From positions 14,123,385-14,187,384 of the forward strand of contig NC_088295.1 of assembly GCF_032854445.1 (NCBI RefSeq): a stretch of 64,000 nt of DNA, given 5' to 3'. The notes beneath the pieces are model-generated. The model searched no databases, was not told the DNA's origin, and saw nothing but the letters and a program-made list of their open reading frames with translations. Shown here piece after piece: positions 948 to 51,600 of this stretch. Position numbers and translations under genes: made by a program. The stretch's first letter is position 1, and every line of letters begins with the position of its first letter. Source of the stretch: Liolophura sinensis. Its lineage: Eukaryota; Mollusca; Polyplacophora; Chitonida; Chitonidae.

Positions 948-3900
948 CTCTTCCAGGCACCTGTCCTCCTCTGCCCTGTTCTCAGTGGTGAAATCTTCCA
1001 GAGGATACTTCAGCTGGGGGAAGGTTGCGATTGGCCAATTAGGGCCAGGAAAGTCCAGTTTATGTAAGGGCTTTGTATGAGTGACAGCCAGGGCACCTAA
1101 ACGAACAACAACACATGTACAGCCAGATAGTTAGTCCTATCTTAAGAGGAATGCTTTGTAAGACACAAATCTTGGATCAAAATAAATGTCTTATGTGGGA
1201 GGGTCTGCCAACAACTTTCAGATGGCCATGGGTTTTCCCCTGGCTATGCCCTTTTCCCTCCCACCATAATGCTGGCCATCATCGTATAAGTGAGACATTC
1301 TGTAGTACGATGTAAAACACCAAACAGAAACTACATTATTCGGAACTATAAATTTGCCAATGGAAATCACCCAAATGACTTTACCTTAATTGGCTAATTA
1401 CAAAGGGCAGTACCTACCCTTAGTCACCAACCCAATGTTTCATTTCAAACGAACTGGTTGTTTATCATCTCTACAGCTTTCTACTTCCAACTGTGTGTCC
1501 ATGCATTGTATCTCATCTTACCAGGGTATGTATCTTACTCATTGTTCATCCATGAAATGTGCCTTATTTTACCCATTGTGTCCATGAAATGCCTTATCTC
1601 ACCCATTGTGCATAAATGAAATGTGCCTTATCTTACTCATTGTTCATCCATAAAATGTGCCTTATCTTACCCATTGTTCATACATGAATACTAGTATGCC
1701 TTATCTCACCCATTGTGCATCCATGAAATGTGCCTTATCTCATCCATTGTGCATCCATGAAATGTGCCTTACCGTATCCATATTAGGTCCATGAAAAGTG
1801 CCTTATCTTACCTATTGTGTATCAATGAAATGTGCCTTATCTTACCCACTGTACATGAAATGTGTCTTTTTTTTACCCATTGTTCATCCATGAAACGTGC
1901 CTTTTTTCACCCATCATACATCCATGAAATGTGCCTTATCTTACCCATAATAGGTCCATGAAAGATGCCTTATCTAACCTATTGCGTGTCAATGAAATGT
2001 GTCCTAACATACCCATTATACATGAAATGTGCCTAATCTCAGCCATGAAATGTGTCCAAACTTACCCATTGTGCGTCCATGAAATCCATTAGAAAAGGAG
2101 AGGATGGAAAGGTCTGGAGTGCCAGGTGGCTGGTTAACAATACAAGACCTCATGTCCTCCTCTGTAGGGTCAGCTCCACCCCTCAACCTCCTCTACACCA
2201 ATCAGAAAGTAAAGTCACACTCACATGTATTACGTTAAATAACCTAAAATTTCGCCAAGGATTAAGGTGCACATTCCACCTGATTCTGAGATGATCCATT
2301 GATGTTAGAAATATCTTATCTGGTTTGTTTGGAATGGAGATTCATATCCTGCAAGAAAAATGTTAAGATTCAGCACCCAAAGTAAGTTTTTATGACATCT
2401 ATTTGCCTCTAAAAATGCACTTTTTGAAGGCAAAATTTTAGGTCTTTTGTCGCACATGCCACAAAAAATACTGCATTAGTTCACAGAACATTTGAAAATC
2501 ATTTAGTACAATCTGGATAGTTAATGTTTCAGTCTAGGCAATTCTGGTGAAATACTGCTGCTGCTGTGTTATTTTTTTTTCTAGACATAGTTCGAGGTGA
2601 TTGCGCTGTTTTCTTAATGATGTAGTGTTTTAATGGCTTTACATGTGCATGGCCCTTTTATATGCAAACTGGCTAGGCTGTGAATCTACCTCCACAACTA
2701 CGCCTGATAAGAACAAAATAATTACCAAATAAAGACCTGTAAGCCCATAGAATTATTTAAATAAATAAATGAATAGCACAGAAATTTTATGAACAGGGAA
2801 CTCAACTCACTTGATGGTGCCAATTGACACAGCTAGTAATTGTTTCTTTCTGGGATTTTCTGACTTCTTATGTTTGATTTAAATTTAGTTAAATGAAAAA
2901 ACACAAGTACACAGGTATTTCATTCTGATATTTCCCACGTTCCCAGAATGAGGCTATTCTTACAAGCAAGTTATGTTCTACATTAGAATGAGGTATTTGA
3001 TCAGCAAACTTACCATGTAAGTAAGAAACATAGCCTTCTGGCCATGTTCTATAGAGCAGGCCCCACATGCCATGGTCTGCACCTGGTTTAGTCCTGGTGG
3101 TGCAACCTGACGGGGTAAAAAACAATGTCAGCTATTTTGTTTTAACAATGTGATGTATTCTCAGAGTACTTAAGTCACACAAAAGGGTAACATCACAGAT
3201 TAGACAATCCCATCAAAATTCAGTTATATAAATTGTTTGTTTATTCAATGTGTGTTTTATGCTGGACACAAGAATTTTAAACTTATATGACTGTGATCAG
3301 CTTTATGGTTGGAGGAAGTGAGAGTAAACTTCCTTCCTTTGCTCGGTACCTGACAAACCTCTCGCTGTTCAAGCGCCTGATAGATGAAGTGAGGCATATG
3401 CAGCGCTGTAACCATCAATCTTGGATGAAAAACACATACTACTGATTCTGCGCAAGCAAATCAATAAGAGGATTTGGTCATTGATTAATGATTTAAAGAT
3501 TTGAAGAGAGACACTATCAGAAACCAAATTCAAATTTAGTCTAAATCATGGATAGTAGAACACACATCAACTAGAGTTAAGACACCAACGGTAATTCTAA
3601 TATTATTCCTGAATATTTCTGCCTCAGACTTGGGTAGACTAGTCTGCTACTACATTATCAGAATTAAAGAATGGAAGAGCATGGTATTAGTGATGAAATA
3701 TCTTAGCACAGAATTTCTAAGATTTCTACAATACTTTATAAGCAAAATTACTTTGTTATTACTAAAAACTCAATAAAATCAATGCCAAGATACAGCCAGC
3801 CTTCCCAGAGTCGGTTACATGCATGTAGCAATACTACAAACATCATTAGTAAACTGAATTTATATTTTGAGAGTGATAAGACTGGGGTTAAATCTTGTGG

Positions 3901-11192: not shown

Positions 11193-11245
11193 CTTTATGA
11201 ATATGACATGAGTATACTTATGTCTCACAGGGTAAAACACAACAT

Positions 11246-11507: not shown

Positions 11508-11716
11508 CTGAGACCGAATGTAATATGTATATCTATAATTTATGTTTCAGGCAAATAAAGTGACCCATTATCTGCAATGAGACCCTATATATAGTAGCTG
11601 AAACAGTAAGAAATGAATTTGTTTGCCCGTGTTTTTGCCTGTGGTATATATTTCTCCATTCTTTATTTGTACCATGCTTTGAACAGTGTCCGACAAGGAA
11701 GTCCTACATGCATGCT

Positions 11717-11790
11717 AGGGGGCCTCTGTGGCTGAGGAGGTTAGCATGTAAGCGTGGTGCAATGACCTAGGAGCCTCTCTCGTGGTCGAG
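11717..11790 (+). mobile_element. SINE, family 1, head fragment
   Basis: Only the tRNA-related head is kept: GGCCTCTGTGGCTGAGGAGG, then TTAGCATG and CCTAGGAGCCTCTC. No body or tail follows. Confidence 0.6.
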
Positions 11791-15200: not shown

Positions 15201-18200
15201 AATGAACGTGGCCATTGTCATATGATATGAAGGAAATATTCATAAGTGTGGTGTTAACACCAGAACTAAAGTTGTTTTTTTTTTATTTACAGGAACTTGA
15301 ACAAAAACTTCAAAAGTTTGAAGATGATTCTGTCTTAGTGAAAAGTATGAAAAGCCAGTTGTCAAGAGTACCTGAATTGGAGAAGGAAGTTCACTCCCTT
15401 ACTGAGAAGTGTGAGTTCTTAAAGTGAGTATTCTTAGTCTATCATTGCCATTTGCCACACACCACAGGAAGTCTGTGGCTTTCTCACGTGTCACTAGTTA
15501 GTCAAAACCAAGCAAATTCTACAACTGCCCTAGCTCCTTGCTGTTGGCAGTTGCCACATGTGAGACAATTTAACTTTTTTTTCCCCACACAAATTGGCTA
15601 TAAAAATCGCCTGTTGTGTGCTGAGCTTAATGTTTCTGTACCTTTTCCACAAAGGTGATTTTTGGGTAAACGAAGTGATCATGTTTACACTGGGGACACC
15701 TATTAAAGACAATTTTCTTTTGTTTTCATAAAAGAGTTGATGTTGTGGGGGAAAGAATGTGTTGTGTGAACATGTGCTGATGTAATTATGCCATCAGGGA
15801 AACAGAGGAGAATGTAACCTTGCTGAAGGAGCAGATGGAGGGGCTGCAGTCCCGTCTACATAGGGCTGACCAGAGATGTGCAGAACTGGACAGGCTACAG
15901 GTGGAGAATGAGGTCAGTGTTCAAGGCACTGAGTTAAAGCAAGCAAGGAGGTCACTCCAACTTTTGTTTCTTACAAGAGCTGCTGTTAATTATAAATTCA
16001 TAAAGGTAATTAATTGATCTGTTGAGTTTGTGAACTCAGCAAACTGTTTGGTGAAATTTAGGGACCCATTTTATGAAGGAATTATAACCGGCACATGACA
16101 TAATGTACATGACAAGGCATACATGTAGCAAAGACATACGTCAGCATGGTAAATACACTTGACTCAACTTTATGGCAGCTTTGTAATAAGAAGTATTAAC
16201 TTTCCAAATTTAGACACGTTATTCGTAAAATATATGACCATGTTATGTGAGACTTGTACATGCAGGTTGTCAAAGATGCTTATTTTGTTCATCAATGTAT
16301 CATTTCAGATGTTGAAGAAGAAAATTAAGAAATGGGAACTGAGCGATTCTGAGCAAATGTAAGGATTTGCTCAAATACTTGTGATGTTATATAATCAAGG
16401 TTCAGAGAAGACATTTATTCAGTGATGACTTGATTATAAGAGGAACTCTTCTTAGACACAAACTTTCTAGAGAACTGCATGCCCTTATTTTATTGATTTC
16501 TTTTATACGTGTTTTGCACTGTACTCAAGAATATTTCACTTACATGTATATGGCATCGGCCTGTGTTATGGCCATCAGCAGGCTGCTGGAAGACCTTCCC
16601 ATGTACAGCTGGAGAGGAAGCCAGCATGAGTTGGACTTGAATTCACAGCATTGGTGAGAAGCTCCTGGGTCGTTGTGCTGCTCTAGCACACTAACCACTA
16701 GGCGAGTCCCCACACATCCTTATTCCAATATGTGACATAGGCTTATGCAAAAAAGAAAAAAAAAATTAAGTACAGTATTTACATTTGTTAACCATTTGCT
16801 TAGCCTTTAATCTATCAAAATATACTGATAATTTTCAGGTCACCAGTGGAGATGAAGAGGAGGCTAGCAGAGTCACAAAAGAGCCATTTACTCTTACTGG
16901 AGACTCGGGGACAGCTTCAGTCCAAGTCAGTACCCTTTGCGCAGTACAGTGTACATTTTATAAGAGGCATAAATGATTATTAAGATTGTCTCAGTTTAAC
17001 ATTGTCAGTGCCAACTGATGTACAAAGTAAATACTCACATATCGTTTTCCCAGTTAAAAGTGACGGTATTGATATGTAAAAATTGATAGGAAACATATAA
17101 GAAACAGAAAATCGGTGCCAAACACAAGCAATTTTGGAAATAAGCAGTAAGTATCTATTCCTTGAAAGGAATCATCTGAAAGAGGAATAGATGATGCACA
17201 TATTTTTGTTGTTTGTGGTTTTTTATTGTTTCATTTTACTGGGTTTTTGTGGGGTGTTTTTTTCTTTGTAACATCCTACCACATCTTTTTTTATGTTTCC
17301 TTTTTTGGCAGGATATGTTCATTGGAAGATGAGCTGAGGACAAAAGAGGAACAGCATCGCTCAGACAACAGCTCCCTCTTTCAGAAAACTTGTCGCTCAC
17401 AACAACAGGATGATCTCATCAGGAGATTACAGAAGAAACTTCTCCTTATTTCCAAGGTATTATACTTTGTTGAGGTGCAAACATTTTTCTAATTTTACTG
17501 TCTGAAAAGCTCAAATAATGATGGCTTGAAACTTCAAACGATCAAGAGATGGTTGGAAATGTTGATATAAATGTAAAGTGTATTGTTGTATGTGTAGGAA
17601 AGAGATGCATTAAAGCGGATCCTGGACTCTTATGAAAGTGAGATGACTGTGAATTTAGATTCTCACACTGGCAGTCGACAGCAGCAGATGGACGAGGTGA
17701 TACTTGGGTATCAAAGACAGATAGAGCAATATGAGGGGGATCTACAGAGAACAGGGGAACAGTTAACACAGGAAAAAACCAGAGCTCAGCAGGTAAATGG
17801 TATAGGTGTCACAGTCAGATAGAAGACTTTAGGAAGGGGAATCAAGGGAGTAACTAACTTAGAAGAAAACCAGAGCTCAGCAGGTAAATGGTATAGATGT
17901 ACCAGTCAGGTAGGACACTTAAAGGGAGGGGAATCAAGGGAGTAACTAACTCAGAAGAAAACAGAGCTCAGCAGGTAATTGGCACAGGTGTGTCATTGAC
18001 ACGTAGAACCTTAGTTTGCAAGAAAATTGACCTCAACAGGTAACCAAGTGATTGAAGTATATCAGAGACAGAAAGGGGCTGTCTGGCAAGGCCTACAGTG
18101 AGATTTAGGAGGATTTGTTACAAAATGATACAAAGATATTGTACAACCCACTAAACAATATGTGAGTAAATACATATTACACGTTTTGTATGCTTAGGTA

Positions 18201-21200: not shown

Positions 21201-24200
21201 AGACCATAGGTGGACAGAAACTTACCACTGGTTGACGTTTTCTTAGATTTCTGTCTTCTTCCACCCATACGACTGCAATAATTTTGAATGTAGCATAAAC
21301 AATCAGTCAGTCATGCTTTATACCTGGCCCCAAATTTGTGACAAACTTAAATTTTAGTCCCAAGAAAAAAGAAAGTGCATACTAGATATGGTCAAAATGT
21401 AATGACCATATGGGTTTGTCAACCATATTTATTTTCACAGACTCTGTGGTTGATGGTAACATTCATTCAGTTCCCCCTTATACATCATGTTACTGTTGCA
21501 GGTTTACAATGCTAAAGAGATAGCAATTAAACAATCTTTCAGTGTTAATTATGGGTTTGGAATTCTGAACTTTAGGTTTGGAAAGGGTTTGGAAATGGTT
21601 TTGAATTTTATTATCTTTTTTGGGTGGGAACCCTGGTGACTTTTTACAACAGAAGGCATTTTCTAAGCAATTGTACATGTAATTTTATATCACTTTGATA
21701 TCATAGTTGCATTTGTGTTACAAGTTGCAATAGTACACTGTATACCCTAATTCCTCAACCTTTTAACGTATAAAAAACCAACTTTCAGTGGAATTTGTGG
21801 ACATTTTTTGGAGATTTAATTTTGGAGACAAAACTACATTGGTTGGATAGGCCAATTCCAGGGCTTCACAAAAGGTATAACCTTAACAGTCTACAAAGTA
21901 CAATGCCTTGAGAATGAGCTTGAAAAAAACACTTTGCACACATATGAAAAGGTTGAAGAGTTCCAGAAAATAGACTTTGTTTTTTTTTTTTGTTGTTTTT
22001 GTACCTTGTACTGTCTGTCTTGTGCTTTTTAGGGTGATTTTGATCCAATGAACACAAAGGTGGTTCATTTCCGCATGAACCCAGCAGCTGTGGCTCAGAA
22101 ACAGCGGGCAGAGGAGCTGAAAACAGTGAAGGAGGAGAACATCAAATTAAAAGAGAGGGTGAAGATACTGGAGGAGACAGGGGGCCAAGTACAGGATCTG
22201 ACCATGGTGGTGGACAAGAATGTCCAGGACAAACAGGGCCTTAGTGTGGAGGGTGAGTAATAGGGGTCAGTAACTAGGGTGTGTGAGGTGGAGTAAGGCT
22301 GTGGGAGAGGGTGAAGCTACTGGAGGAGTTAGGGGGCCAAGTACAGGATTTGACTATGGTGGTGGACAAGAATGTCCAGGACAAACAGGGCCGTAGTGTG
22401 GAGGGTGAGTAACAGAGGGCAGTAACTAGGGTAATTGTGTGAGGTGGAGTTAGGCTATGGGAGAGTCTGAAGCTACTGGAGGAGTCAGGGGGGCAAGGAC
22501 AGGATCAGACCATGGTGGTGGACAAGAACTTCAAGGACAAACAGGGCCTTAGTGTGGAGGGTGACAAAGTAACAGAGGGTGAGTAACAGAGGCTAGGGTG
22601 TGGAGGTTGAATAACAAGGATGTTTTGAATGGGACATACTCTCCTCATGCAGAGGGCCCTAGTCTTCCTTCAACTACCTCTGCTAAAAGAGCTCACAAAT
22701 CTGAGCCAGATGGCTAATTAACATAATCCAGAATGACCAGTGGAAATGACCATTACATCTCAAGCTGTAATATATTGTAGTAAAGTTACTGTGACTGAAC
22801 AAAGTGCGAAGGCTTTTGCCAAATCTGTTCATGGTGATCAGATTTTAAGCATGAAGACTATTTATGGTTCAGTTGTGAGTGAACAGTGACGCGAAGTATT
22901 GCTGAAGTACATGTAGTTTGTATTTCATTATAAATGCAAGATTCTTAGATCTCAAATAGTGATGTAAATATTAAAAAAGACTCACCTTTACACCGACGAA
23001 TGAAAATTTGTACTCGTTTGCCATGGTATTTTCCTTGTTCATTGTTCACACCGATTACTTCACTTTGCACTTATGTCAGGAAAACAGGTGTCTTTCAACA
23101 GAGCATGAAATCGATGGGTTTGAATGGTCTGTAATGGAGAGTAAGTGGGACAGTAAGTGAGATGTTAATGTAATGTTAGAATAGTGGAGATATCGTACGT
23201 TAAAAGTCACTGATGTTAGAGAGGGATATTTCTTTTTCTCTGTTTTGGGGACATCAACCACATAATCACAGAGCTAAGGTATAACAGGTATAAAAAAAAA
23301 ATTCTACATTCCAGATCTGTTCCAGTCTTGATGGTTCATTTTTTGTGTTCCAGAATTGAAAGCCCAGTTGTCGTCAGCAGAGTTGAAGACAAAACGTCTG
23401 ATGGAAGCTTTCAAGGAGAAAAGTCAACAACTAAGGGAGATAATTTATGAAGTTGTGGGGTACAAAATTGACATGTGCAACACAAATCAGTACAGGCTAA
23501 CAAACCGATATGCTGAGTCACCCAATGACTGGTTGCTCTTCATGGTGAGTCAGAAGCAAGTGTTTAAACGGTTAGTGAGTGGGACAGTGTCAGAGGGACC
23601 TGTCGCTCTGCCTGACAGAATTACTACATGTACAGTAAATGACATAAAATTTCACCCATGACTGGTTCTGAAAGTTTTTTTGAGATATTCTCAGGTTTGT
23701 TTGAAAGGTAGGATGATATCCTACTGGAAGTAGTCAGAAGTAATATTTTATAAGATTTCTTCACTGCTAAAAAAACAACTTTCTTAGGCAAAATTTTAGG
23801 TCATTTACCACATATGCATAAAAATGCATATAGGATATTTACTGAAAAGTACATTTAAAAAAAAATAACAAAGATTTCATCGGTTCTTATAGATTCTGGA
23901 TTTATCTCACTTTAGGAGCACTTGTAGTGAATTGGTCATCTATACATCCATTGGGTTAATATTTTTACTAAGGTAGTAACTGATTAGATTATTCTCTCAT
24001 GATGATGTTCTTCGATAAAAAGCTACTTCACAGATGCTTCTTTTCAGCTGTGCTAGATTCCTCTTTCCGTGTTGTCTACAATGTTGACCCCAAACCTGGC
24101 GTGCAAAATATTCTGACTTGGTCAGTCAAAGTTTATGCCTAAATCCTGTGCATAAGAAAAGCTGTAATAATTGGTTTAATGTTTGCTGTTCTCTTTCAGC

Positions 24201-28647: not shown

Positions 28648-31600
28648 TTAGTCCTGGTATTCCGTGCTGAAGTACTCGCGCAGACGCCCCAGCAAATCCT
28701 TCAGCAGAGACTCATATTCTTCATCATCACCCTCAATCTATAACAACAACAACATGACACTGATGACTGGACCGCTAACCATGAAAAATGCAAGCTTGTT
28801 TATAAGTTTACAGATAATACTATAATTTGTCCTTAAGAAGGTTACACATATGGACACTACAGCAAATTAAGCCTCAGTTCAAAACATGGAAACTGTAAGC
28901 ACACACTTACAAGATTTCACTCTTTGTTGACAATAAAATATACTGTCTTTGTGTAAACTTCAACATGGTTTAAGGAGGTAACTCACTGCTGACAGCAAGT
29001 GGACTGGATTTTTAGACCTGTATACAGGTTTACCTTATGAAACAGACACCATACTTCAAAGAGGCTTACAATGTGTGAAACCACGGAACAGGTGTAACTG
29101 AAGTGTCAACAAAATTACCAATAGTTTCCATGTCATATGAAAATATTTCTGACTTTAATCAGGCAGATAAACATGTAAGGTGATTTTGCTGATATGCCTT
29201 CATAGAGTAAAGCACCATTTGAGGATATGCATCAGTGATGGTTGACATCACCTAAAAGTTGTAAGCAACAACAACTTGCAAAATAGATAAAGTCCTGACA
29301 TGTTTACTTAATACAGTTTAACAAAACATTGCAGATTATCATCATCCCTATCATTTAACCTATGTTTTAAACACAGGCCTTAACTTTCTCACCAAACAGA
29401 GAATCTACTAGTATCACTGCCCAATGCTTAAACTGTACTCATTATTACACTGAGACATCAATAACCTTTTATAATGACTACACTACTCATTACTATACCT
29501 CTTCAATCCCATTCACATGATCTGGGCAGCCACTGTCTTCAATGCCCTCTACTTTCTCACCCAGGGGAGACAATTCAAAGTGCACAACCTGGGCGCCATT
29601 CATCACATCATTTTCCACGACCAGACATTTGGTGGCGGTGCGATAGCCCGGAGCCTGGACATCCACACGGTACTGGCCATCAATCAACAGACGGTAGTAG
29701 TCGCCACCTTTGGCTGCCAAACAACATACTCATACTTCAACAACGTATAACAATGGAATTGCTGCAAAGTGTTTGTAATCCATAAATACTGGTCCTTACA
29801 AGACCACAAAAGGAGTGGTATTTTTGGAAAGCATGTGGTAGCCTTGTCCACAAAACTCATTTTTTTACATCTTGAATATGAATTTATGAATCTTTTCTGG
29901 CAAAACCCCATGAGATTTAAATCTCTGAATGTTAATCTCTGATTTCCAATTTGCATAAATAGTACACAGACTTGCACACACGAATACATGTACTGTTTCT
30001 TTGCCAAAGTTAGTGAAAGAGAAACTGAGGAACACAGCTGTCAATACTTGTAAAATCCTACGCAGAAAGGTGTCCCCTGTCTACAGGTACTCGCACACTG
30101 TATTTATTTACAGCTGGCTAAAAACAACTATACTTATCCCAACTCTACTTCCAGGAGAACTAAACTGCACATTTTGACAACGCCCCCTTTATGCTACAGT
30201 TTCATTAACCATTAAATACTTTTAATCTAAATTTGTAATCTAAAAAACAAGTAAATGTATGAAAAGATTTGCGCAAAGAATTAACAACACAAAGAAAAGC
30301 AGAATGAGTCATACCTGAGGTGATGTCATGGTTGATGTACTGGTACTTCCCATCTGTCATGTTATACACCTTGACTGTGGCACCTGAGATCGGGGTGTCA
30401 GACACTCTGTCAACCACCATGCCCTTAATTCCAACATGACTCTGTAAACAGAGAGACAAGCCTTGAGTCAACACTCTCCTTATTCCCATGTGTACTATGC
30501 ATATGACCGTATGGACACTGATATACAATCCTGAAACTTCAACAACCTACTTCAGTTTAAACATATTACTTCAACTACATCACTGAATGTTAGTTAAATT
30601 TTACACTGTAATTTTGTGTGCAAAATGTCTGTGAAAACAAGCCAACAAACTGAACCAAGTTTACTCTTCATATCCAGCCTTGGATGATTATGCTTCTAAA
30701 CCACAAGAAGTAACCAAGAAGCCGAGGATAGCGACCAGCATTATTCGTCAGTTTTTGTTAATCTTTTATGATGAAAAACCATGACTATACCATGACTATA
30801 CTGACAAGTTGTCTGAATCAACCACATTATGCAGTCCCGAAGCTTGACCAGATTTACAGGTTACCCAAGGGATGAAGTTTTACACTTTCTCTAAATTTTT
30901 TCTTCTTGCATTTGCTCTTAATAAAAAAAATAAGAGTCAATCTCATGATATTTTTCAAAAAGTAAACTTTAATGTAGCATATCTGAATAAACTTCCTCAA
31001 CTGGTCCATCAGCTGTGTATAGCTGTACATATCCAAACTAAAATTGCATCAGCTTCACACACCACATAAAATGTGATAGCACAGGGTTTTAGACTTTGTA
31101 CAGCTGTGATGAAGACTAATTAGTTATAATATTTACACTGGAGATCATGTCTAATCATCGTAATGAGCTTAAGGTAACATGATACCTGATGATGCGTGGG
31201 CAAACAGAATATTAACAGCAAGGTAAATACCTGCTAAGGTTTTAATAATTAATTGGTAAACATCCAGAGAATCAATGCCATGCAACATTTTAGTCATGTA
31301 AATAGACTACTGATTCGAATAATCACACTGATTACACAACATAATGCAATTTGAGTGGTGTCTTCTTTCCAACGAATGCTACCTAACTATGTCCTTTAGA
31401 AAAATAAATAAAAGAAATTTGTGATAATTACACAAACTAAACCACTCCATCAGGAAGCTAATGTGTTTAATCCAAATGATACTGGACACCCAAAGGTCAG
31501 ATGTACATACATTACCATCTATTACCACTGATCAGAGTACCAGGTGTTCAGCCATGTGTTACCTGCAGGATTTAGCTGACTAGGATGTCAGCTTTCAGAT

Positions 31601-34600
31601 ATCACTCCACCCTCCCTACTCACCCAGAGTACCAGGTGTCAAATGTAGTTGACTTGGATGTCGCACCACCCTCTCAACCCTCCTCACCCACCCAAAGCAG
31701 GTGTTCAGCCATGTCTTACCTGTAGGATGTAGTTGACGAGGGCATCCTTGTTCTGCTCCCAGTACATAGGCAGATCAGCTGCTGGTGGGAATTTGTCACA
31801 GCCTAACTCCAGGGTTATTTCAAAACAGTTTGTGGCCAGATAGTTGAAGTCTTGCATACCTACAACATCAAAAACATATGTTGACATTCACTAGTACATT
31901 AAACCAACAATACGCATAACTAATTTTTGTATTTTATTTCATGACCGAGTGTCTGGTGACACAGATAAGAGGATAATTCCAGACAAGAATTATTGAGCAT
32001 CTACTGAACCACGCTTTCACAGCCATGAGTAGGTCTATACCAACCTTTGGTGACAGAGTACCATCCTCCACCATTGGTTATCCCCCCTTGTTTGTAGAAC
32101 TTGTCATCTCCACTCATATCACAGGGTTTATGTTTCTTGGCCATGAGTCCATGAGGGAGAGCATACATCTCAGCTAAGTATCTATGTATACATAAAAAAA
32201 ACACACACAAATTTCAGGGATAGCCTTAATATATAACAATTACAGAAGAAAACCTATAGTTTAGAATTTTCCAAGTGACACATTTTGCTTGATTCTTGAT
32301 TCATCCATCGTACAGGGTCACCTAAATTTATTCGATTGGTGTTTTATGTTATACGGCCACGAAGGAAGCAGGCCACGTCAAAGTTTTTTGTGAAGTTTGA
32401 TTAATTTCATTAAAAATGTTTGCATAAAGGTGCTTCTGAAGTAGATTTTTACATACCAAACTTCAGGTGACATACAGAACTCATCGTATAAGATTTGAAG
32501 TCATCTACATATGCCATATTCTTCACTAGTTGCCCTAACATTTCTTGTACAAGATAAAATACCCCTTCCAAAGATATCATAGCAAACCAAATAAAATCAA
32601 CTTTTTGCTCTTAAAATCAGTGAAAGCAACAGTTTATCTGTCATTACATGTATTGCACTGTCACTGAACGGACAACTGGCACTGCCATGTTTGCCCTGTG
32701 ATGTCAATTTAATGACGTCAGATGTTCCTTTTTCCAGCTCATCATGATGACACTGCACTAAAAACAGTATGACGTTACTATAAACACTGATACATTGTAA
32801 CATTGTAGACGCTGCACTACAATCCTTTCTTGATGTAACAATGGCTCAAGGTCCTGCTTCACACTTGCGCCAACACGTGGGATCAAAAAATATGCCGCTT
32901 TCCATTTATTCTTTAAGCAATTCCACCCAATTTATACCAAGTGTTCACTGATGTCACATTTGGCTTCTTTTTGTGCTTAATAAACAAGAAGTTGTTATCC
33001 ATAAGAAATCTACCTTGTCTTAGCTCAACGCTCAACTTCTACACGCCATCGAAAGAAGTTCTTTTTTCTTAGCTAATGATCAGTATTACTTAAAAATTTC
33101 CATCTGTTTGTCAATACCATGCAGTTATCAATTTCACAAAAACATACATAATGCTGTGAGAATGTATTTAGAAACCTGTTCATGGCAAAGGCTCATTAAG
33201 CTCACCCCGGGCTTATTTACCTGAAAGTGGCATCATCTGGGGATGCTGTATACTCTCTCTGCTTCCCGGAGCGGGTGGAGTCAAATGGGTAGTTAGCCAC
33301 AAGGTCACCCCCATGGAGGTTGGCAGAGAGAACAAACGGGTACTGGAACAGCCACTGGATCACCATCTGGGCCTCGGGTGCTTCCTGCAACAGCCAAGTG
33401 GAATCTTAATCATAACATTGGATCATTACAAACACTGGCACAGTCAAGCTAACATAAACTTGGCCACAGTTACATATACACTGTTATTTGTCAATTTTTG
33501 GCATATCTGATACGTACAGTTCTGCTACTTGATCTATAAAATACTGTAATGGTAATACAGGCCACATTTTGACAGAAGTGTGACTGTTATATTTGTTCTG
33601 ATGCCATCTTTCATCAGCACAGGTATACTACTTCTCTATGTAATCATGGATGATGCAGTACTGGCAAACAACTCCTAGACACAATGGGGAGATGGCATAT
33701 GAACAGGTGGTGCTGGTGTGAAGCAGGGCCCTGGATCACTGTTACTTCACAATCATCATACAGCATTCTTCCCAATGTAATTTACAGTAGTTTGTACAGT
33801 AATGTTGTACTGTCATTAATATAATATTGTGATAATGAACTGAAAAAGGAATATCTGACATCAATAGAAAGACATCACAAGTCTTACTGCCTGGCATTTG
33901 CCTGATCCCTGTCCGGATCGTACTATGCCATGAAGCAATGTTTCACATCCAGGTCTTACTTTCCTCAAAACTCCACCAGAGAACACAATCCATTCAATAA
34001 AAGGTAACAATGGCTGATCAGTATGGCTGGTTAACTTACAGTGGGTGTGTCCTGCACAGCCAGGGCCAGCTTCTCCAGGTGGTTGTTGTGCTGTGTCTCC
34101 CCGTCAACTTCATCTCGGTACAGGATTGCGTCCAGATCAGGGAACACGCGGTTCAAGTCCACACCACGCGCATTACTTCTACCTCTCAGCCAGTTCTTCT
34201 TCCCATCCTGAGAAAGACAGAGAAAGCGACATTGTGTAGATAAAAATGTATACAAACCACTGTAGTAAATACATGCAGAATCTTGTACATGTACAAGCCG
34301 AGTGTACCATGTGTAGCTGCTTTCTCTCCCCTGCACACAATTGCAGCGAATCATGTGTGTGGTTTGGTATATTGTATATTCTATCTTGTATGCACGCAGT
34401 GCATCCTGTAAGGTTTGCTATATTCTATCATGTATGCATGCTGTGTCAAGTGTATGGTTTGCTACATTCTCTCATGAATGCATGCAGTGTATCGTGTGTG
34501 GTTTGCTACATTTTATCATAAATGCATGTGTCATGTGTGGTCTGCTATGTTCCATCACGATTGCATGCAGTGTATCATGTGTGGTTTGCTACATTCTATC

Positions 34601-37600
34601 ATGAATGCATGCAAGGTATTGTGTGTGGTTTGCTACATTCTATCACGTATGCAAGGAGTGTCGTGTGGTTTGCCACATTCTATCATGTATGCATGTGTCA
34701 TGTGTGGTTTGCTACATTCTCTCATGAATGCATGCAGTGTATCGTGTGTGGTTTGCTACATTTTATCATGAATGCATGCAGTGTATTGTGTGTGGTTTGC
34801 TACATTCTATCACGTATGTAAGGAGTGTCGTGTGGTTTGCTACATTCTCTCATGTATGCATGCAGTGTCGTGTGGTTTGCCACATTCTATCATGTATGCA
34901 TGTGTCATGTGTGGTTTGCTACATTCTCTCATGAATGCACGCAGTGTATCGTGTGTGGTTTGCTACATTTTATCATGAATGCATGTCATGTGTGGTCTGC
35001 TATGTTCCATCACGATTGCATGCAGTGTATCATGTGTGGTTTGCTACATTCTCTCATGAACGCATGCAGTGTATTGTGTGTGGTTTGCTACATTCTATCA
35101 CGTATGCAAGGAGTGTCGTGTGGTTTGCCACATTCTATCATGTATGCATGTGTCATGTGTGGTTTGCTACATTCTATCATGAATGCATGCAGTGTATCAT
35201 GTGTGTGGTTTGCTACATTCTATCACGTATGCAAGGAGTGTCGTGTGGTTTGCCACATTCTATCATGTATGCATGTGTCATGTGTGGTTTGCTACATTCT
35301 ATCATGAATGCATGCAGTGTATCATGTGTGTGGTTTGCTACATTCTATCTTGAATACATGCAATGTATCATCTGTGTGGTTTTCTACATTCTATCATGTA
35401 TACGTGCAGTGTTATGTGTGGTTTGCTACATTCTATCATGAATGCATGCAAGGTATCATGTGTGTTGTTTACTACATTCTATCCTGAGTGCATGCAGTGT
35501 ATCATGTGTGTGGTTTGCTACATTCTATCAAATACATATGCTGTGTGTTAGATGTGTGTGGATTGCTACATTCTATCAAATCCACATGCTCTGTGTAAGA
35601 CGTGTTGTGGCTGATATGTTCCTTCCTCCAGTTTATCACATGTGTGAGCGTACCGTTTCTCTGGGGCTGTTGTTGGCTGCCTCCCACCCATCTGGGTTCA
35701 TGGAGGGCATGATGTGTATGCGTGTGTTGTTGATGATCCATTGCACGGTGTGGTTCCCCTGGTTGTACTGATCACACAGATAATCAGCCAGCTTCAGCAG
35801 CACCTCTCGGCTCACCACCTCATTACCATGCATGTTCCCCACATACTTAAACTCTGGTTTACCTGTAAACATACAAACATCTTCAATCAATAACACACCA
35901 TGATACGGCTGAAATATTGCTGATCTGCCCTTAATCCATAATCATTCCTTCATTCATTCAACTGTGAGAATACAGTAAGTCCTCTTAATATACAACCAAA
36001 AAAACAAGAGCATTTGTGAGAGACAATGATAATATGGTTAATACCATGGCATTAATTAGATACGTGTAGATCTATTCACCAAAAATCATAACTGTTACCA
36101 AAAGGAGCATGTAATGGCAATGTAGTTACCAAATCTCTGAATGGGACAGTCTCACACACAACACAAGGCCTTACCTATGAATCTCTCCACTAAATATTAC
36201 CCATTTTGCTCACTGTGGGGAAACGGGGTCTATCTTAAATCCAAATTTCAAATACGATTTTAGAGGCCATCTATGGGCCCAAGAACTTAAAATTATAATC
36301 TCCTTATAAATGTTGTCTTAAGACAAGTTTCTACTTCCAGTTCCAAAACTTAAGCATTCTGACAAATTTTAGGTGCAAGATTCAAAAACAGGTTCATTTG
36401 CTGTGTAATAATTCCACCCCACCCCAAACCTTTTATATATCCACATGAAACTTTATAGATACCGTTTTTCCCTTTTTTCACATTTTGTACATTAAATGGC
36501 AACTCTAAATGGAGTTAATCTTAATACAGGAATTTTGAGTTTCGAGACTGTGACAAAGCAATGACATCAAGGCAGAAAGGGATGTTACCATGATGTTGTA
36601 ACATTGGAACTCTTGTGTTACTTGATAATGTTTCCTCTAGTATTACAAAGATCATGATGAGTGTGTAAAGAAGAAATGCTTTTGCATACTAAATGTAAAA
36701 ATACTTCTGTTAAATATCTGATATTTACTGACTGTGTATCATAGGAACGGTACCAGATGTTACTTATTGATGGTACCTACAAAAACAAAATTAACCAAAG
36801 GAGAGTATTCCTTGAATAACATCTACTGGCAGTGCATGTCAGGTAACGATAATGTGAGGTGTGATGCCTGAAACAACAGCACCTGCCATGTTACTAATTG
36901 GCTACGCAGGTGGTTATCCACCTGCCTGTCACAATCCCTAAATACAATTAAGAAGTGAATCATCACTTCTGAGCACTGTATCACTATGGCAACCATTCCT
37001 ACGTCAATGCCAGATTCAACCCATGTGCATGGTCAACTGTCAGCAACATGATCAATAGTCCATGTTCCATCATGGTACATCAGGTTAAACCTGAACCAGT
37101 GGCCTAAGTGGCCGTCTAATTGTGAGCTTAAAATAGCAATCATATGCTGGAAACTTTTGTCCACCTTTAGAAAAATCGGCAACCACTTAAAATTTATCTG
37201 ACATGAACAAATGTCTAGTGTCTAGTGCCAAAAATAATATTTATCCACAAAAGGGAAAGGACACTGATGATTGGTCAAGATGCAAATATCTGTGAATCTC
37301 TGCTTAACCCAGGCACTACCATTTCCTCCACCCAACGAAGCAAACACAAAAATTTAATAAAGAAGATCTGATTTTACAGCTGTGGCAAAAATTTCTTGAC
37401 ACATAAAAATGCTCTGGGCACAGTTATTTTCCAGGCTTTGTTACAAAATATAATACAGATTGATCATCAGACATGTGCACTAACTTAAATTATGTAATTT
37501 GTGCCTTTTGTCATTTACATGAGAATAAATTTCTTACAAAGTGTTGTTCGATTTTCTGCCATGAATTCCTTGGTTTAGAAATGGGCAGATATTTTTTGCA

Positions 37601-42695: not shown

Positions 42696-45600
42696 ATGGC
42701 GGTCAAACTTGGAAGTGTACAGAGTGGGCTTTCACTTATCAATGCTCTGTTCAGGATAGGCTCATCGAAATGTATCAGGTCGGTTTAGCGGTAAAGATAT
42801 AAATAAAAAAATAGTGCAACCTGAAGAGTGGGTCTGCATAGCCTTCCCAAGCTCCTAATGTAGTTAAAAATATCCATGTATGCCTGGCTTGAGCAGTTGA
42901 CTATTGGGTGTTGTTGTTGTTGCTTTTGCATAACCGCCAACTTACCAACGGTCTTTCTCAAAACATATTCCCTTGTAGGGACGGGGAAGGGCTTGGTTTC
43001 CTTTGCAGGGCATTGCCATTCCCATTGATTAATGTCAGTAATGGCTGAACTTTTCATGACAAGTCCGAGTATACTAGTTAGTTCAGAAATATTTGGGACA
43101 CACCATAAGGTAACACCGAAAAACTCCAACTCCTTTTCTTATGTTGGCCTAGCGTCGTAGGAGTCTCGAAGCTAACAGTATTAATTTCGTATGCAACGAA
43201 GGCGAATTCTCTTTGCTATTGAACAAGCCTTGTGCAAATAAAAGATGCCGACTTAAATACCTGCTTTTTGCACCCGTGTCACCACAACCATATGTCCTAG
43301 TCGCTTTAGAATAGATTTATTATTGCCATGAAGGCTTCCACAGTGCATGCTTCTCTGCCATGGCTGCCATGTTGAGCAGCTACATGTAGGCCTACACCGA
43401 GGTCGTGCATCATAGTGGAGCAGTTGGAAGATGGCAGCCAGGACCAAGGAATGTGTGCCATGGAAGCCGTCATGGCTATAATAAATATATTTTAAAGCGA
43501 GGAGGGGCATATGGTGGCGGTGCGATGGGTGCAGAAAGCAGGTCTTTATCTTGGTGTCTTTTATTTGCATCAGACTTGTTCAATAACAAAGGGAATCGGC
43601 CTGGACCTCCGTTGAGTATGAAATCAATACTGTTAACATCGAGACTCCAATGACACTAGGCCAATATAAGAAAAGGAGTTGGAGTTTTTTGGGGCTAGCC
43701 ATAAGCATGGCTGCTCTTCCTCTAGTCATAGACCGCGTCTATCACTGTTGTCGTGAAGAACATATTGCAATGCAAATAAGCACTCCACATACTGGTTAAA
43801 TCCACACTATAAGTTAACGTGTCCTCCCCCCATTGCCACACACAATTTTGCAATGGTAATCCAATAAAGTATTGTTTCTCAGGAGAAAAGAGTCCAGACC
43901 ATGCTGTCACTTGGGATTTAAGACAACTGCCATTTGCCTCGTTCTTTGACAGTCTCTCGCAAACCCTTGAATCGTTGCCAACAGTTGATTGTGGTTCAAA
44001 ACTATGATACTGTAGGCCAGGTCGTACTATATGCATATGTTATCCCATAATATTACCTTATGTAATAAAATAAACAGAAAAAAATGGCGGTGTGTTCAAA
44101 TAAATCACTAATCTGAGTGCTGACATTTTGAAGAATTCTATCCACATTGTGGATAGTTTTAACAAACTATTGGCAGTGTGAGACTCCAAGGACACCACAA
44201 AGAACAAATGATTGTAAAACTAATAGAGTAATGCGTTATTTCTAACATCGATGAAACCTTGTTTCTGTCCTTGTCCTTTAAAATAATGACATTGTTGGAA
44301 AAGAAAAACTACAAAATCCGCTTAGGCATTTTTGATAAGACACCTGTGTCAAATGCAGTCTCATCATGGTTTCATCCAGTAGGCGCTCCCTTAGTTCTCA
44401 CAGTCAAACATTCTGCTCTGCACTGCTTATTTATCATTGGCCAGTGTTTGATAAATCAAACTATTTGACTATCAGATATCACAATCAGAGTTTTGCTGCA
44501 TTTAATACTTGAACCATCGGAAAAACCATAACCCAAACTGCATAAACCTTCACATATGAATAACCGTAAGCGATAAACACAGATACTGGTATAGAAAATA
44601 TAGCATTATTGTGAAGCATTCAGTATGGTCAGTTGTACTTGATGACATGAAGACTTTGGGTTGTTCTTTAAATAATCCTGAAGTCAAGTACAGTATTTCT
44701 ATTAAATGGAAGTGAAATCCCAGAACACAGTATTAGGGGATTCTGCCACAGTAAAAGTTGATTCAAAGATGTAACTAGTTGCTTGTCATATCTGTTGCTA
44801 AGTAGTTTGTGAGTATAGGGAGCATCTATAAGGTAAACATTGAAAGGTTTTTGGAGACAAAGTTGATCTGTTAATTTCTCGTAGGTTGATTGGCTTACAT
44901 TGTATTTCATTTAATTTTGTGAAAAATGTATTATGGATTTATTTCACAGGTATGGCATGTGTCAGTTACTCTGGATGTTATTTATTGAAAAAAAATCAGG
45001 TCCTCTGAAGACCTGATTTAGTCTTCAAATTGATTTAAAATTAATACAAATTAATGAAAAAACATATGAAGAAAAAAAACGGTCAGATATTACAGTGTGC
45101 ATTTCCATTTCAGGCCAGCATGCGAGACAACAAATTTGTGTCGATACTTTGGCAGTAATAAGCTACAGCCACCAAAAAGGCCTCTTACAGCTTTTTTCGA
45201 TTTTCTTGGACAAAAAAGGGATGAAATCAAACTTAACAATCCAGGTAAGGACTACAGTGTTCTGCCATTTTGATCTTTTGTTGGTGTGTTTTTGGTTTCC
45301 AGGTTTATTGCTAAGCCATGCAGAAGGATGACTTGACTTGTACTGGTGATGTACCTTTGTTATTAATTCTTCTACCTCTAGCAGGGTGGCTAGAAATGGA
45401 CTGCATAACTTTTGCCATAATTTGAAGCCTAATAATTTATCAAACCACTTTATATTTTCTACTTTTACAATTATTATTTACAGTCAAAAAACGTAAGGAA
45501 GCCTCAAGCATTTTAGACTATTGCCATTCTTCTGTCTCTGTCGGGACAGATTAGAGAAGCCCATAGTTTGTTCACTGAATTAGTAGGTCTCATCAAGGTA

Positions 45601-48600
45601 CCCTGACATTTCAGCTCTACCCCATTCTACTGTTACAGGTGCCAAAGTTCAAGAGGTGGCAGCCATTGCTGGGCAGATGTGGAAGACAATCAGTGAAGAA
45701 GAGAAGAAGGTAAATGTAGGGTTAGAGTGAAAGCCAGTTGTTGAGTTACATCAGCAGAGTGCTGTCCCATTTTATTGAGGTATTTTGCTTTGCAAAGGTG
45801 TAGAGGTGCTTTGTGAAGTTTAATGTCTGGAGTTATATTGAACATTAAAGAAAGAGAACTTTCACAGATGAAATTAAATCTTCTTAAAACATATCTTTTA
45901 TGTAGCTAGATGTTTTAAACAGCAGAATTACATTTTGACAGTAATGCTATTACCAGTGTTAAAGAATAGATAAGAGTATAAATTAACTCTGTTGTACAGG
46001 TGTGATGTCAGCATACAAAGGTATGTCGCCCCATTGTCAGTACATCTGACATGAAGATTCCAACTTTATTTTCCTAATGCTGTGTAATACTCTTGATTAC
46101 AACATAAACCAATGAAATAAGTAAGAGGGTCTTATGGGTGTTCTGATTTTTTCTGAATTTAATTCTATTTACATCAGCTACAAAGCCAAATACCATAACT
46201 AAATAATTGTCACAGTGACGAAAAACATCAAAATGAATAGAATTTAATAAATGTCTATGTGCGATACCACAGGCTCTGCAGGATCGAGCCCATCGGCGGA
46301 TGGAAGCGTACAAAGTTCAGCGTCTACAGTTTCTGGATCAGTTGACACCAGCAGAGAGAGAAGAATTGGTTGTCTCGCAACGGGAACACAGGCGAAAGAG
46401 GAAACACAGGAGGCATGTATTGGTGCGTACACAAATAGTCCATGTGGTAGCTAAATACATGTACATTGTTATTTGTTTGTATCCCTGGCATAAGAAAAAT
46501 TAATCCAGCTAATCCCGCATTTCAAATGCATTCATTTTTCCTCCATTTATATCCCTGTTTATCAGTCTTGGAATTAGCAGGGATGGGAGTTTTTGTTTTG
46601 CCAAGGGTTGATTTTGTAATTCGTGTAAACTTGATTCAAAGATATTGGGTGGGAGAGGGTATGCGGAAGAGCGACAACGTTTTCTCGGTGGCATCACAGT
46701 TTTGTGATTGTACCGTATCAACAACAATGTTCTTCATTCGTAATGTAGCTTTGTCACATTGTGATTGGTTGAGAAGTGCTTGTTATCCAATCAGAATTTG
46801 CGTTACTAATTTCCGCGTCAGTACAAAACTGTGTTTAGTGTTATCTGCATGAAAAAATTCGCGTAAAAATGGTCAAATTTCTGAGTTAAGAAAATGAGGT
46901 AAAATAGTTTGACAGCATTGTGAAAAAGAAATTCTGATGGGCTTGGCTGGAAAGATCTGTGACTGTTAAGTTGAAAGTAGGAAAAAACATCAAGGGAGTA
47001 GTAGAAAAGTTGATAGGTTTCATCTCGATAAGAGTGACAAAGTTGTTGGTGCTTTTTTCAAAAATGCGTGGACTGCTTATGCCTTTGTGCAAAACATATG
47101 CTGAAGATACTTCCACTGGATAACAGGTTGTTGAGATGTCTGTCTTCTCTCGACTCTGCAGTCCGAGGACACACTGTCACAGCTTCACACTATTTCTGAA
47201 GCCTTTCCTGACAGAAGATCTGCTAGGCAAGCTTGATTTAGAAATCCACAGCTACCAGGTGGGCTCCAACATTAAGTCATTTGAAGGACAGAGGGTTGAT
47301 GCTTGGTGGGCATCAGTCATCAGCTCAAAGAGATACCCGGCTCCATACACCATGGCTGTTGTATGACTTAGTTGCTTCCATGGGCCCAGAGTTGAGCCCT
47401 CCTTTAACTTAATGGGTGATATTGAAGATATCAGATCAGTCAGAATGAAGTTCAGTACTGTCTAGACAGTAAAATACGTACTTAAGATCAGAAATTCTAC
47501 CTCCCTTCAACTCTTCAAAAAAAGTAGACGTCAGACATGATCCAGTTGATGGGAAATTGTGTTGGAACTTTAAGAATGCAGCCAGTTTTTACACGAAGGA
47601 AAAAGCTGAGAAAAAGAAGAGAAAACAAGAACAACAAATAGCCCTGTGCCAGCTACAGTGAGCAAAGGAGAGCCAGGCTGAGCAGAAGAAAACAATTGAA
47701 CAGGCAGCTAAAGCTGCTAGACAAGCACATCAGAAAGCCCAAAAGCAAAAAGCAGCTAACCAACTTCATAAATTATTGACTTTTGAATCTGAAAGTATGT
47801 TGTGACTGACTTTCAACAAGGTGCAAGATATAATTTAATTGTTTTCAATGTATGGGCCATAAATTGGAATGGACAAAGGCCAAGGCTTGTGTACATAAGT
47901 AGAAAGTAATCTCTTACCTTGCCATAAATATGAATGCAATTGGGTTGCCTGATAAATCTTGATTTCAGGCTATACATGAACATGCATAGATTTATGTTGT
48001 CTTCTTTGGATGTTTTCCTGTATATAGTGGTAACATAGGTTCATAAAAGCTTAAATGCCTAGAGCTTCAGGGAACTTTGTCGCCTTGGACCCTCCACCAG
48101 CCTCCTACCTGTACCCGGTTTGTGGCCGGTGTCCCCCAGACCCCCGACTAATTTCAGCTGATTTTTCAAAAATTCATTCTTATCCCAGAATTAGGTTGCA
48201 GTTGTGAAGAAATGTTCAGGATACACAGTTTCCACGTTTTTTTTTTGCTGAGGGTATAGAAATATTTTTGTGATTTCTGCTCTGTTAATGTTTGTGTGAT
48301 GTTTTGTTTTCTTTCTCAGGAGTTGCACAAACTGGGAAAACCTAAACGACCAGTTTCCCCATTCTTTGTGTTTGTACGGGCCAGTCAGGTGGAGAGAGGG
48401 GATGCTCCCATACAGGTAACTGTTAGTCAGACTGGGGAGACCTCCATGACCAGTATTACCATACTTTGTGTTTGTACGGGCCAGTCAGGTAAAGAGGGGA
48501 TGCTCCCATACAAGTAACTGTTAGTCAAACTGGGGAAACCTCCATGACCAGTATTACCATACTTTGTGTTTGTACGGGCCAGTCAGGTAAAGAGGGGATG

Positions 48601-51600
48601 CTCCCATACAAGTAACTGTTAGTCAAACTGGGGAAACCTCCACGACCATTATCCCCATTCTTTGTGTTTGTACGGGCCAGTCAGGTGGAGAGAGGGGATG
48701 CTCCCATACAGGTAACTGTTAGTCAAACTGGGGAGACCTCCATGACCAGTATTACCATACTTTGTGTTTGTACGGCCCAGTCAGGTAAAGAGGGGATGCT
48801 CCCATACAAGTAACTGTTAGTCAAACTGGGGAAACCTCCACGACCAGTATTGCCATACTTTGTGTTTGTACGGGCCAGTCAGGTAAAGAGGGGATGCTCC
48901 CATACAGGTAACTGTTAGTCAAACTGGGGAAACCTCCACAACCAGTATTGCCATACTTTGTGTTTGTACGGGCCAGTCAGGTAAAGAGGGGATGCTCCCA
49001 TACAAGTAACTGTTAGTCAAACTGGGGAAACCTCCACGACCAGTATTACCATACTTTGTGTTTGTACGGCCCAGTCAGGTAAAGAGGGGATGCTCCCATA
49101 CAGGTAACTGTTAGTCAAACTTGGGAAACCTCCACGACCAGTATTGCCATACTTTGTGTTTGTACGGCCCAGTCAGGTAAAGAGGGGATGCTCCCATACA
49201 AGTAACTGTTAGTCAAACTGGGGAAACCTCCACGACCAGTATTACCATACTTTGTGTTTGTACGGGCCAGTCAGGTAAAGAGGGGATGCTCCCATACAAG
49301 TAACTGTTAGTCAAACTGGGGAAACCTCCACGACCAGTATTGCCATACTTTGTGTTTGTACGGGCCAGTCAGGTAAAGAGGGGATGCTCCCATACAAGTA
49401 ACTGTTAGTCAAACTGGGGAAACCTCCACGACCAGTATTGCCATACTTTGTGTTTGTACGGGCCAGTCAGGTAAAGAGGGGATGCTCCCATACAGGTAAC
49501 TGTTAGTCAAACTGGGGAAACCTCCACGACCATTATCCCCATTCTTTGTGTTTGTGCGGGCCAATCAGGTAGAGATGGATGCTCCCATACAGGTAACTGT
49601 TAGTCATACTGTGGAAACCTGAACGACCAGTATTTTTATACTTTGTGTTTGTATGGGCCAGTCAGGTAAAGAGGGGATGCTCCCATACAGGTAACTGTTA
49701 GTCAAACTGGGAAAACCCAAACAACCATTATCCCCATTCTTTGTGTTTGTGCGGGCCAGTCAGGTGGAGAGAGGGTATGCTCCCATAACAGTTGAATGGG
49801 GAAAACCCATCTTCATTTAATCAAGCATTTAATCATTGTCTACCTTGATTTACTGAGCCACATTAACTCTTCATAGCCCTGAACTTTCCTTCATAAATAT
49901 GCATGATCCATGGTCCAATCAGATTTCACCTCATTTATTGACACTGACAGGAGTTAAAAGCAACATGGTATGTGGCTGTAGTGAGAAGTATGCAGTGTGT
50001 GGAATATTTCACAATAGACAAATAGAAGTGCTGGCAAAAAAAATAACTCCCTGCACATCGACCTGTTAAGGGTTATTGTGGGGATGATTATTTTGAAGCA
50101 AAATAGGCTTGATAAAAATTAGTGGCAAAACAACAATAGACAAATAGAAGTGCTGGCAAAAAAAATAACTTCTTGCACATCGACCTGTTAAGGGTTATTG
50201 TGGGGATGATTATTTTGAAGCAAAATAGGCTTGATAAAAATAGTGGCAAACCAACAGTCAGCTGTTCAGCCTCTTTTGCTATCACGGGTGTTGCCTACTA
50301 GTGGGGGAACTTTTCAGTGAAAGCACATCGATGTACGTTCTTATTGCTCATTGCTGTTGAATTATGTTGTGTCAAGGAATAAATCAGATCTGAACGTTCA
50401 TGTATTTACTTCAAAACAAGGAAATACACATTCACTCATGACCAACAATTGGCTGAAAATGCCCTGGTGGAAGTATGCGCACAGCCATTGGCTGTTCATA
50501 CACACTGTAAAACAAGGGTGATAACGAAGCCTATAGCAAGTATCAGCCTTGCGAACAGGAAGATGGGTAAACCTAGAGGACAAGCATCCTCATTCTTTGT
50601 GTTTATATGTGCCGCTCAGGTGGATGGAGGGGACACTCCTGTACAGGTAACGGTCTGTCAAACTGGGAAAACCTTAACAGCCAGTATCCCCAACAGGTAA
50701 AGCGTTGGTCCTGGCAGGTAGGATTTCTGATCCGTGTATTATGCTCAGATAGGCTGCATAGCTAATGTATCCAGTGAACCCCCTCATCTTATGATTAATG
50801 TATATTAACAGTTCATCCAGAAGCCTTATGTCCGTATCATTGACTTCCTGTTGATGTTTTCTGTTTTCTTAGCAGTTTGTGAAAGGGTTGGCAGAAAGAT
50901 GGAAAATGATGCCTGAAGAAGAAAAAGAGGTACACTTTATTTATTTATTTGTTGGTGTATTATGCCGTACTCAAGAATATATCTCTTAAATGGCCAGCAT
51001 TATGGTGAGATGGCATAATGGGAGGTGGATTTTGATGTAGTGTACATGTACATTTATCGACGAATTTGTGCTGAATTATTGCTATGAAGGTGAGACAGTT
51101 GATTCTCAGTGTTGGGAACAGAAAAATCTTTTCCTCATGGGAGGTTTTCTAATGATAGCTGGTTATCATCAGTGGAAGGCAGAAATCAAAGCTCCTAGTA
51201 GATGGCCACTGAAAAGCATTTTTAGATGTTCCTTTTCTTTTTGATTAACCGGCCCCGATGGCTTAGTAGAGTGTCAGCTTTGGGTCAATCCTGGATCGGG
51301 TCAGACTTTAAAAAAGAGGAAGTTGTAGAGGTTCAGCATTAAGGGGATATTGCAATGACTGGTTGACCCGTCTCAGTATAATGCCTTAGGTAAGTCGTCT
51401 CAGTGAAGCACCAATAGAAAAAGAAGAGTGGTGGAAATCCATTCTGCAACAAGGAGGCACATTACAAGTACATGCATTTTAAGGACTCGCGCTTTGTCAT
51501 ATGACTGAAAACTTGTAAAGTGCAACATTAAACCCAAAGCACTCACTCACTATTTTGTGATACAATATTCTTGGTACATTTCAAATTTTGAACACGCGAC

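Follow-up and report, generated by a model that had tools for sequence, protein, structure and literature searches.

Splice donors embedded in minisatellites in four genes of the chiton Liolophura sinensis: a structural likeness to the mirages of amphioxus

Introduction

Minisatellites termed 'mirages' lie across exon-intron boundaries in the amphioxus genes for Adh3 and the globins BflGb6 and BflGb9. Their units measure 10-160 bp, both 5' and 3' boundaries are affected, the arrays are unstable in length between alleles, and splicing was found to be regular by reverse transcription PCR (PMC3087553). Further lancelet cases are PGBD5, whose splice sites carry repeats of 60 bp and 108 bp, and TnC (PMC3902484). 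Here we analyse five tandem arrays of this general form in a 64,000-bp stretch of the genome of the chiton Liolophura sinensis (GCF_032854445.1, NC_088295.1, here C1, positions 14,123,385-14,187,384, forward strand), hereafter the window. The arrays span splice donors in the genes for ABAT, MAD1L1 (two arrays), CPE and TFAM.

The chiton arrays and the amphioxus mirages share four features. Tandem units run across an exon-intron boundary, the splice signal lies within the unit and is retained in many copies, either boundary may be affected (chiton acceptors are represented by the sample stretches L010, L014 and L024 described below), and the inner copies are homogenised while the edge copies stand apart. 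By these structural features, the chiton arrays appear to belong to the mirage kind. They differ in phylum, Mollusca, and in number, 11 cases having been accepted in 364 kb, and the likeness is purely one of structure. Differences in allele length and regular splicing are observations from amphioxus (PMC3087553), whereas the chiton arrays are known from one assembly. PGBD5 differs in being a single gene in another phylum.

A second related phenomenon is the gain of introns when a segment containing AGGT is duplicated in tandem (Rogers 1989, cited in PMC3087553), of which potato RdRp is a case (PMC4974935). Both there and in the chiton, exon sequence with AG/GT is duplicated in tandem, but the chiton copies reside inside one intron, no new intron separates them and their breakpoints are not at AGGT. 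Minisatellite expansion at exon-intron boundaries has also been reported for human internal tandem repeats and proposed to form introns (PMC2812944); in contrast to the chiton case, these belong to segmentally duplicated primate genes. Among the papers listed from the part of the literature covered, no molluscan report of mirages, exon-boundary minisatellites or intron gain was recognisable from title and abstract opening, and 'tandem repeat' and 'minisatellite' have 0 occurrences in the main text of a comparative chiton genome paper (PMC12005716).

We consider it probable that the chiton arrays are exon-boundary minisatellites of the amphioxus type, which arose as minisatellites ordinarily do, by birth and turnover, in a genome rich in them, and were filtered by selection on the exons.

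Results

Five donor-spanning arrays in the window

Window gene models were built from open reading frames and splice consensus, and those for ABAT, MAD1L1, CPE and TFAM are backed by Pfam or PDB matches. Arrays with a period of at least 20 bp were sought with Tandem Repeats Finder (TRF) and by self-BLAST of the window. In addition, 70-mers consisting of 40 exonic and 30 intronic bp were compared with the adjoining intron by local alignment (SW score), and scores of at least 40 were taken as tandem copies. An earlier note on this stretch, made from the sequence alone, had described five tandem duplications across donors in four genes; all five are present when TRF, self-BLAST and the 70-mer test are taken together. 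The arrays and the exons that seed them are as follows.

1531..2091, minus strand: ABAT donor-spanning minisatellite; unit of about 34 bp, 17 units including the exon copy; TRF and self-BLAST; SW 54
2066..2192, minus strand: ABAT exon, with the source of the array at its 3' end; gene model, 4-aminobutyrate aminotransferase homology continuous across the junction
17752..18008, plus strand: array across a MAD1L1 donor; three copies of a 91-bp unit; SW 78
17598..17792, plus strand: MAD1L1 coding exon from which the 91-bp array derives; gene model, whose phase disagrees with that of the following candidate exon; junction unconfirmed by homology
22153..22614, plus strand: array across a MAD1L1 donor; three copies of a 152-bp unit; SW 116
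22033..22252, plus strand: MAD1L1 coding exon from which the 152-bp array derives; a single Pfam MAD match runs over the junction
31541..31756, minus strand: degenerate triplication spanning the donor of CPE exon 6; unit of about 78 bp; self-BLAST; SW 63
31720..31859, minus strand: CPE exon 6; junction in frame between two matched domains
48328..49792, plus strand: TFAM donor-spanning minisatellite; 98-bp unit, about 15 copies; TRF; SW 135
48320..48415, plus strand: TFAM exon (second HMG box) from which the array derives; TFAM homology continuous across the junction
50560..50646, plus strand: diverged copy of the TFAM exon, lying outside the array and retaining an open frame and a donor; proportions of synonymous and nonsynonymous differences (pS and pN) 0.26 and 0.22

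At standard settings, TRF returned 15 rows that correspond to six arrays covering 3,991 bp or 6.2% of the window: those of ABAT, MAD1L1 (two) and TFAM, one in CPE intron 2 and a 122-bp duplication in the TFAM intron. Self-BLAST added the CPE exon 6 triplication, which TRF did not detect at standard or looser settings, and extended the ABAT array into the exon. Looser TRF settings gave 25 arrays in the window, with four extra weak ones (scores 52-79) at modelled exon ends. Two of these are acceptors of a fifth gene, rightmost in the window, which we take to be CAMLG and whose model has no match in the Pfam search; none of the four weak arrays is supported by the 70-mer test.

Each unit combines the end of an exon with its donor. 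The ABAT donor follows base 2066, and about 24 exonic bp recur with it in the array. The 91-bp unit of MAD1L1 contains about 41 exonic bp, with a possible fourth remnant copy, and the 152-bp unit contains 100. In terms of coding exons the two MAD1L1 exons are numbers 11 and 14; the earlier numbering as 12 and 15 may have counted an untranslated exon. According to TRF, the TFAM unit begins 8 bp into the exon and has an exonic part of 88 bp, for which local alignment gives 76 bp. Since protein homology runs continuously over the ABAT, TFAM and second MAD1L1 junctions (in TFAM with a gap of one residue roughly twelve residues upstream), the exon-adjacent donor is the ancestral one there; as judged from the sequence, the exon-adjacent copy is thus ancestral in three cases by homology and in a fourth, CPE, by reading frame.

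As the earlier note had held, the arrays are unrelated in sequence: the five and two further intronic arrays of the window show no mutual match at E<=0.01. A wider spread of the TFAM unit was considered and rejected, for in a genome search limited to the best candidates all 15 matches fell at C1:14171705-14174071, its own locus. The two further arrays are the following.

34372..35578, minus strand: CPE intron 2 minisatellite with a 44-bp unit, a short way behind the exon 2 donor at 35654
50011..50256, plus strand: 122-bp tandem duplication in the TFAM intron, away from the boundary; TRF

Exon-derived sequence was not detectable in the 44-bp array (SW 21).

Copy structure, intact donors and breakpoints

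The TFAM array is the longest and its copies are informative. Over the exonic part, inner copies share a mean identity of 0.926 with each other but 0.844 with the exon. The last array copy, at 49740, is closer to the exon (0.907) than to the inner copies (0.783). An inner copy at 48661 is also exon-like (0.94). Over the whole unit, identity of the last copy to the exon is only 0.79, because its intronic tail has diverged. This pattern is that of minisatellite-type turnover. It also bears on the idea of selective retention, by which boundary arrays are born at background rate but stay recognisable longer, as a constant exon copy can re-seed its neighbours, whereas arrays lying wholly within introns decay; an excess at boundaries would then be a detection effect. 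In line with this idea, the exon copy is constrained by its protein while other copies diverge, and the copies at 48661 and 49740 have remained exon-like. On the other hand, many arrays in the genome sample described below are long and well preserved although no accepted exon lies at their edge. Selective retention is compatible with the explanation by ordinary turnover and would supplement it; we rate it as plausible, at somewhat less than an even chance.

Some intronic copies carry a donor that scores exactly as high as the used site, with 10.5/10.5 and 9.3/9.3 for the two MAD1L1 arrays and 10.7/10.7 for TFAM. The earlier suggestion that the arrays supply raw material for alternative donors is borne out to this extent. 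These copies also speak for a role in regulation or for intron gain in progress, in which repeated donors would serve as alternative donors or become new introns, and a comparable route has been proposed for the amphioxus globins (PMC3087553). Several observations point the other way. All five units begin within the exon and thus come without its acceptor, the array copies are in every case confined to one modelled intron behind the exon-adjacent donor, and read-through beyond the used donor reaches a stop in 5/5 window cases. Coding use of the outlying TFAM copy, the one with an open frame, was rejected because pN (0.22) and pS (0.26) give no sign of constraint. Intron gain or regulation is therefore improbable as an explanation of the arrays.

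The earlier note had further suggested slippage or break repair primed at AGGT. We rejected this proposal: in all eight accepted donor cases, five from the window and three from the sample, the first unit reaches AG|GT only after 24-100 bp, and none of the units starts at AGGT on the coding strand. The breakpoints are approximate because the copies have diverged. Unit lengths in the accepted cases of window and sample range from 34 to 152 bp, and the donor cases share no common breakpoint motif.

Tandem repeats are error-prone in assembly, which would favour an artefact. The assembly was, however, built from PacBio HiFi reads with a mean length of 8,347 bp at 14x (PMC11068029), longer than all five arrays, the longest of which measures about 1.5 kb, and the copies differ from each other at many sites. 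We therefore give an assembly artefact hardly any credence. The copy that we analysed comprises 609,464,459 bp in 632 contigs; for GCA_032854445.1 a total of 609,495,693 bp, 31 kb more, in 632 scaffolds is stated (PMC11068029). The species was published as Liolophura japonica and later corrected to L. sinensis (PMC11068029; PMC12441733).

Donors, acceptors and other sites

In the window, a tandem copy in the following intron was present for 5/35 donors (two of the 35 belonging to the presumed CAMLG), with scores of 54-135 as compared with maxima of 23-28 in 60 shuffles, while at the same cut-off 0/33 acceptors had one in the preceding intron. Exon centres yielded 2/36 (TFAM and MAD1L1) and intron 70-mers 47/396, the latter concentrated in a few arrays. 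Counted per base, donors thus show little excess over intron sequence. An event-based chance model gives another picture, with five donor cases seen and 0.34 expected. The earlier claim that donors are hit more often than ordinary minisatellites would allow is upheld by this count of events, but not by the per-base comparison or by the minisatellite content of the genome, which reaches 14.9% in the sample. The note had also named equal rates at acceptors or random intron positions as evidence against its reading: in the window the counts for donors and acceptors stand at 5/35 versus 0/33 (two-sided P 0.054), and the intron positions, counted per base, come close to equality with the donors.

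Since the window was selected for its pattern, a sample that was not so selected was drawn from the same genome. It consists of thirty 10-kb stretches (L001-L030, 300 kb), picked blind but not randomly: 22/30 lie on C1 (20 of them evenly spaced over its first 18 Mb), six on C2 and two on small contigs; four are contig starts, and L001 contains 2,500 N. Exons were predicted by a model trained on the window only (1605 codons), which recovered 19/38 exons exactly when one gene at a time was left out. Of 90 predicted exons, 12/88 donors and 8/89 acceptors scored at least 40. By hand, we excluded predicted exons inside arrays (L006 3384; L007 331, 493, 655, 5934 and 6390; L025 1384) and dispersed repeats (L030 7917 and 8577). 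After these exclusions, three donor-spanning and three acceptor-spanning arrays remained, whose sequences were read directly.

L013, 7392 and 8787, same strand: donor-spanning; this strand carries the start of a FYVE domain (E=0.00095, below the Pfam cut-off)
L024, 5393: donor-spanning; no convincing family match for the L024 exons
L010, 5177: acceptor-spanning; no convincing family match for the L010 exons
L014, 7618: acceptor-spanning; inside a C2 match (E=7e-16)
L024, 8168: acceptor-spanning; L024 exons as above

The view that acceptors are spared holds within the window but had to be rejected beyond it, as the 5:0 split between donors and acceptors is unmatched in the sample (3:3). Pooled over window and sample, 8 of about 75 donors and 3 of about 73 acceptors are affected (two-sided Fisher P 0.21), which allows a moderate donor bias that is not significant.

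A number of results count against the notion that ordinary minisatellite birth is all that is needed. With 0.8 donor and 0.8 acceptor cases expected under the event-based null, for a denominator of about 40 exons accepted by hand count from the 90 predictions, the six boundary cases of the sample exceed the expected 1.6 (P 0.006). When the 93 sample arrays rather than the exons are taken as the starting point, 7/93 are of donor type as compared with 2.97 +/- 1.73 by random shifts, and 11/300 shifts reach seven. Finally, donor-like motifs are more frequent in units from the first 77 arrays than in random fragments, with 27 versus 14.8 (0/100 as high) at a score of at least 6.9 and 14 versus 4.7 (1/100) at a score of at least 8.7. 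Some donor preference may therefore be real.

These excesses have to be read together with their controls. Acceptor-type arrays (3/93) match the expectation of 2.71 (167/300 shifts reach three), and acceptor-like motifs show no enrichment in units from these first 77 arrays. Four donor candidates of the array-centred test with scores of 16.7-18.5 (L007 6390, L020 2430, L024 8032, L027 1973) were left unaccepted. A control motif, the donor read backwards, which on two strands is equivalent to its complement, was also raised, with 22 versus 17.2 or 16.0 and 9 versus 5.0 or 4.8; part of the donor-motif excess thus reflects base composition. At the lowest threshold, donors gave 45 versus 31.2 and the reversed control 46 versus 34.7 in the same 77 arrays. 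A moderate boundary excess, perhaps stronger at donors, is possible.

Such an excess is what a junction-focused mutational process would produce, in which duplication is favoured at transcribed exon/intron boundaries, above all at donors, so that these truly exceed other sites; transcription-linked nicks, R-loops and microhomology-primed repair are candidates. The 5/35 donors of the window against 0.34 expected events, the excess at both exon ends in the sample, the surplus of donor-type arrays over the shift null and the donor motifs in array units all fit this idea. Against it stand the choice of the window because of its pattern, the equal numbers of donor-spanning and acceptor-spanning arrays in the sample, the lack of a shared breakpoint motif and the pooled comparison. 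Any boundary excess could, moreover, be explained equally well by focused mutation or by the retention of arrays seeded from exons. We consider junction-focused mutation unlikely. Of the corresponding proposal in the earlier note, some donor excess stands in the event, shift and motif tests, while the acceptor cases contradict its strict form; a donor-specific mechanism is not established.

Minisatellites in the genome sample and other elements of the window

The sample contains 93 arrays with a period of at least 20 bp, which occupy 44,810 bp (14.9% of 300 kb) and occur in 26/30 stretches; 28 of them measure 500 bp or more. The window, with six arrays and 6.2%, is poorer in minisatellites. 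In the published repeat table, simple repeats, microsatellites and RNA together account for 0.08% and unclassified repeats for 14.04% (PMC11068029). One further array of the sample has an 81-bp period and reaches the end of its stretch (L007:1-999). Its frame encodes an antistasin-like repeat (E=1.4e-7), it carries a strong donor motif, and it could be a further boundary case or an exon.

Other elements of the window include a retroelement at 55396-57755, presumably Penelope-like from its appearance, whose reverse transcriptase frame matches RVT_1 at E=1.2e-6, slightly short of the Pfam cut-off. Self-BLAST revealed an imperfect, self-complementary palindrome of about 587 bp (43111-43697, 76%) and two inverted pairs of dispersed repeats (9691-9894/11005-11192 and 16590-16697/19519-19632), which we assume may be of a short interspersed element (SINE) kind widespread in molluscs.

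Discussion

We favour the explanation that the arrays stem from ordinary minisatellite birth. A segment of 34-152 bp that by chance holds an exon end, its donor and the first intron bases would be duplicated in tandem by slippage, unequal exchange or break repair, as for minisatellites genome-wide, and the array would then be enlarged by ordinary turnover. Under purifying selection, the exon-adjacent copy would continue to serve as the exon end in use, and further copies would thus become intronic; at acceptors, the same process would act mirror-wise. The mutational process, the role of selection, the neutrality of the copies and splicing at the exon-adjacent site are what we infer here. Given that minisatellites occur in nearly all of the stretches sampled and selection would permit growth on the intron side only, both the intron-side expansion at donors and the acceptor cases can be accounted for. 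The earlier note had taken intron-side expansion as a sign of a focused process. The expansion itself is seen in all five cases, but copies on this side would be expected from coding constraint alone.

What is new in the chiton is the phylum, the abundance and the presence of intronic copies with full-strength donors. New introns and alternative splice sites have been proposed to come from splice junctions duplicated in tandem, and the published examples that we encountered are few and mostly from amphioxus. The 11 cases in 364 kb, five from a chosen window and six from the sample, would open the way to statistics on where arrays are born and whether donors and acceptors differ. The chiton arrays offer a system in which splice-site choice and the gain of introns can be tested, and could show how splicing passes over equally strong decoy donors. 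They are also a warning for the annotation of chiton genomes, where exon copies may be mistaken for additional exons. More tentatively, and in our view with less than an even chance, chiton genomes may harbour thousands of exon-boundary minisatellites, with a real, several-fold excess at exon edges that is strongest at donors, and with many exons trailed by intact decoy donors. If this were true, chitons would constitute a natural experiment on how the spliceosome chooses the first among equal donors, and on the gain of introns.

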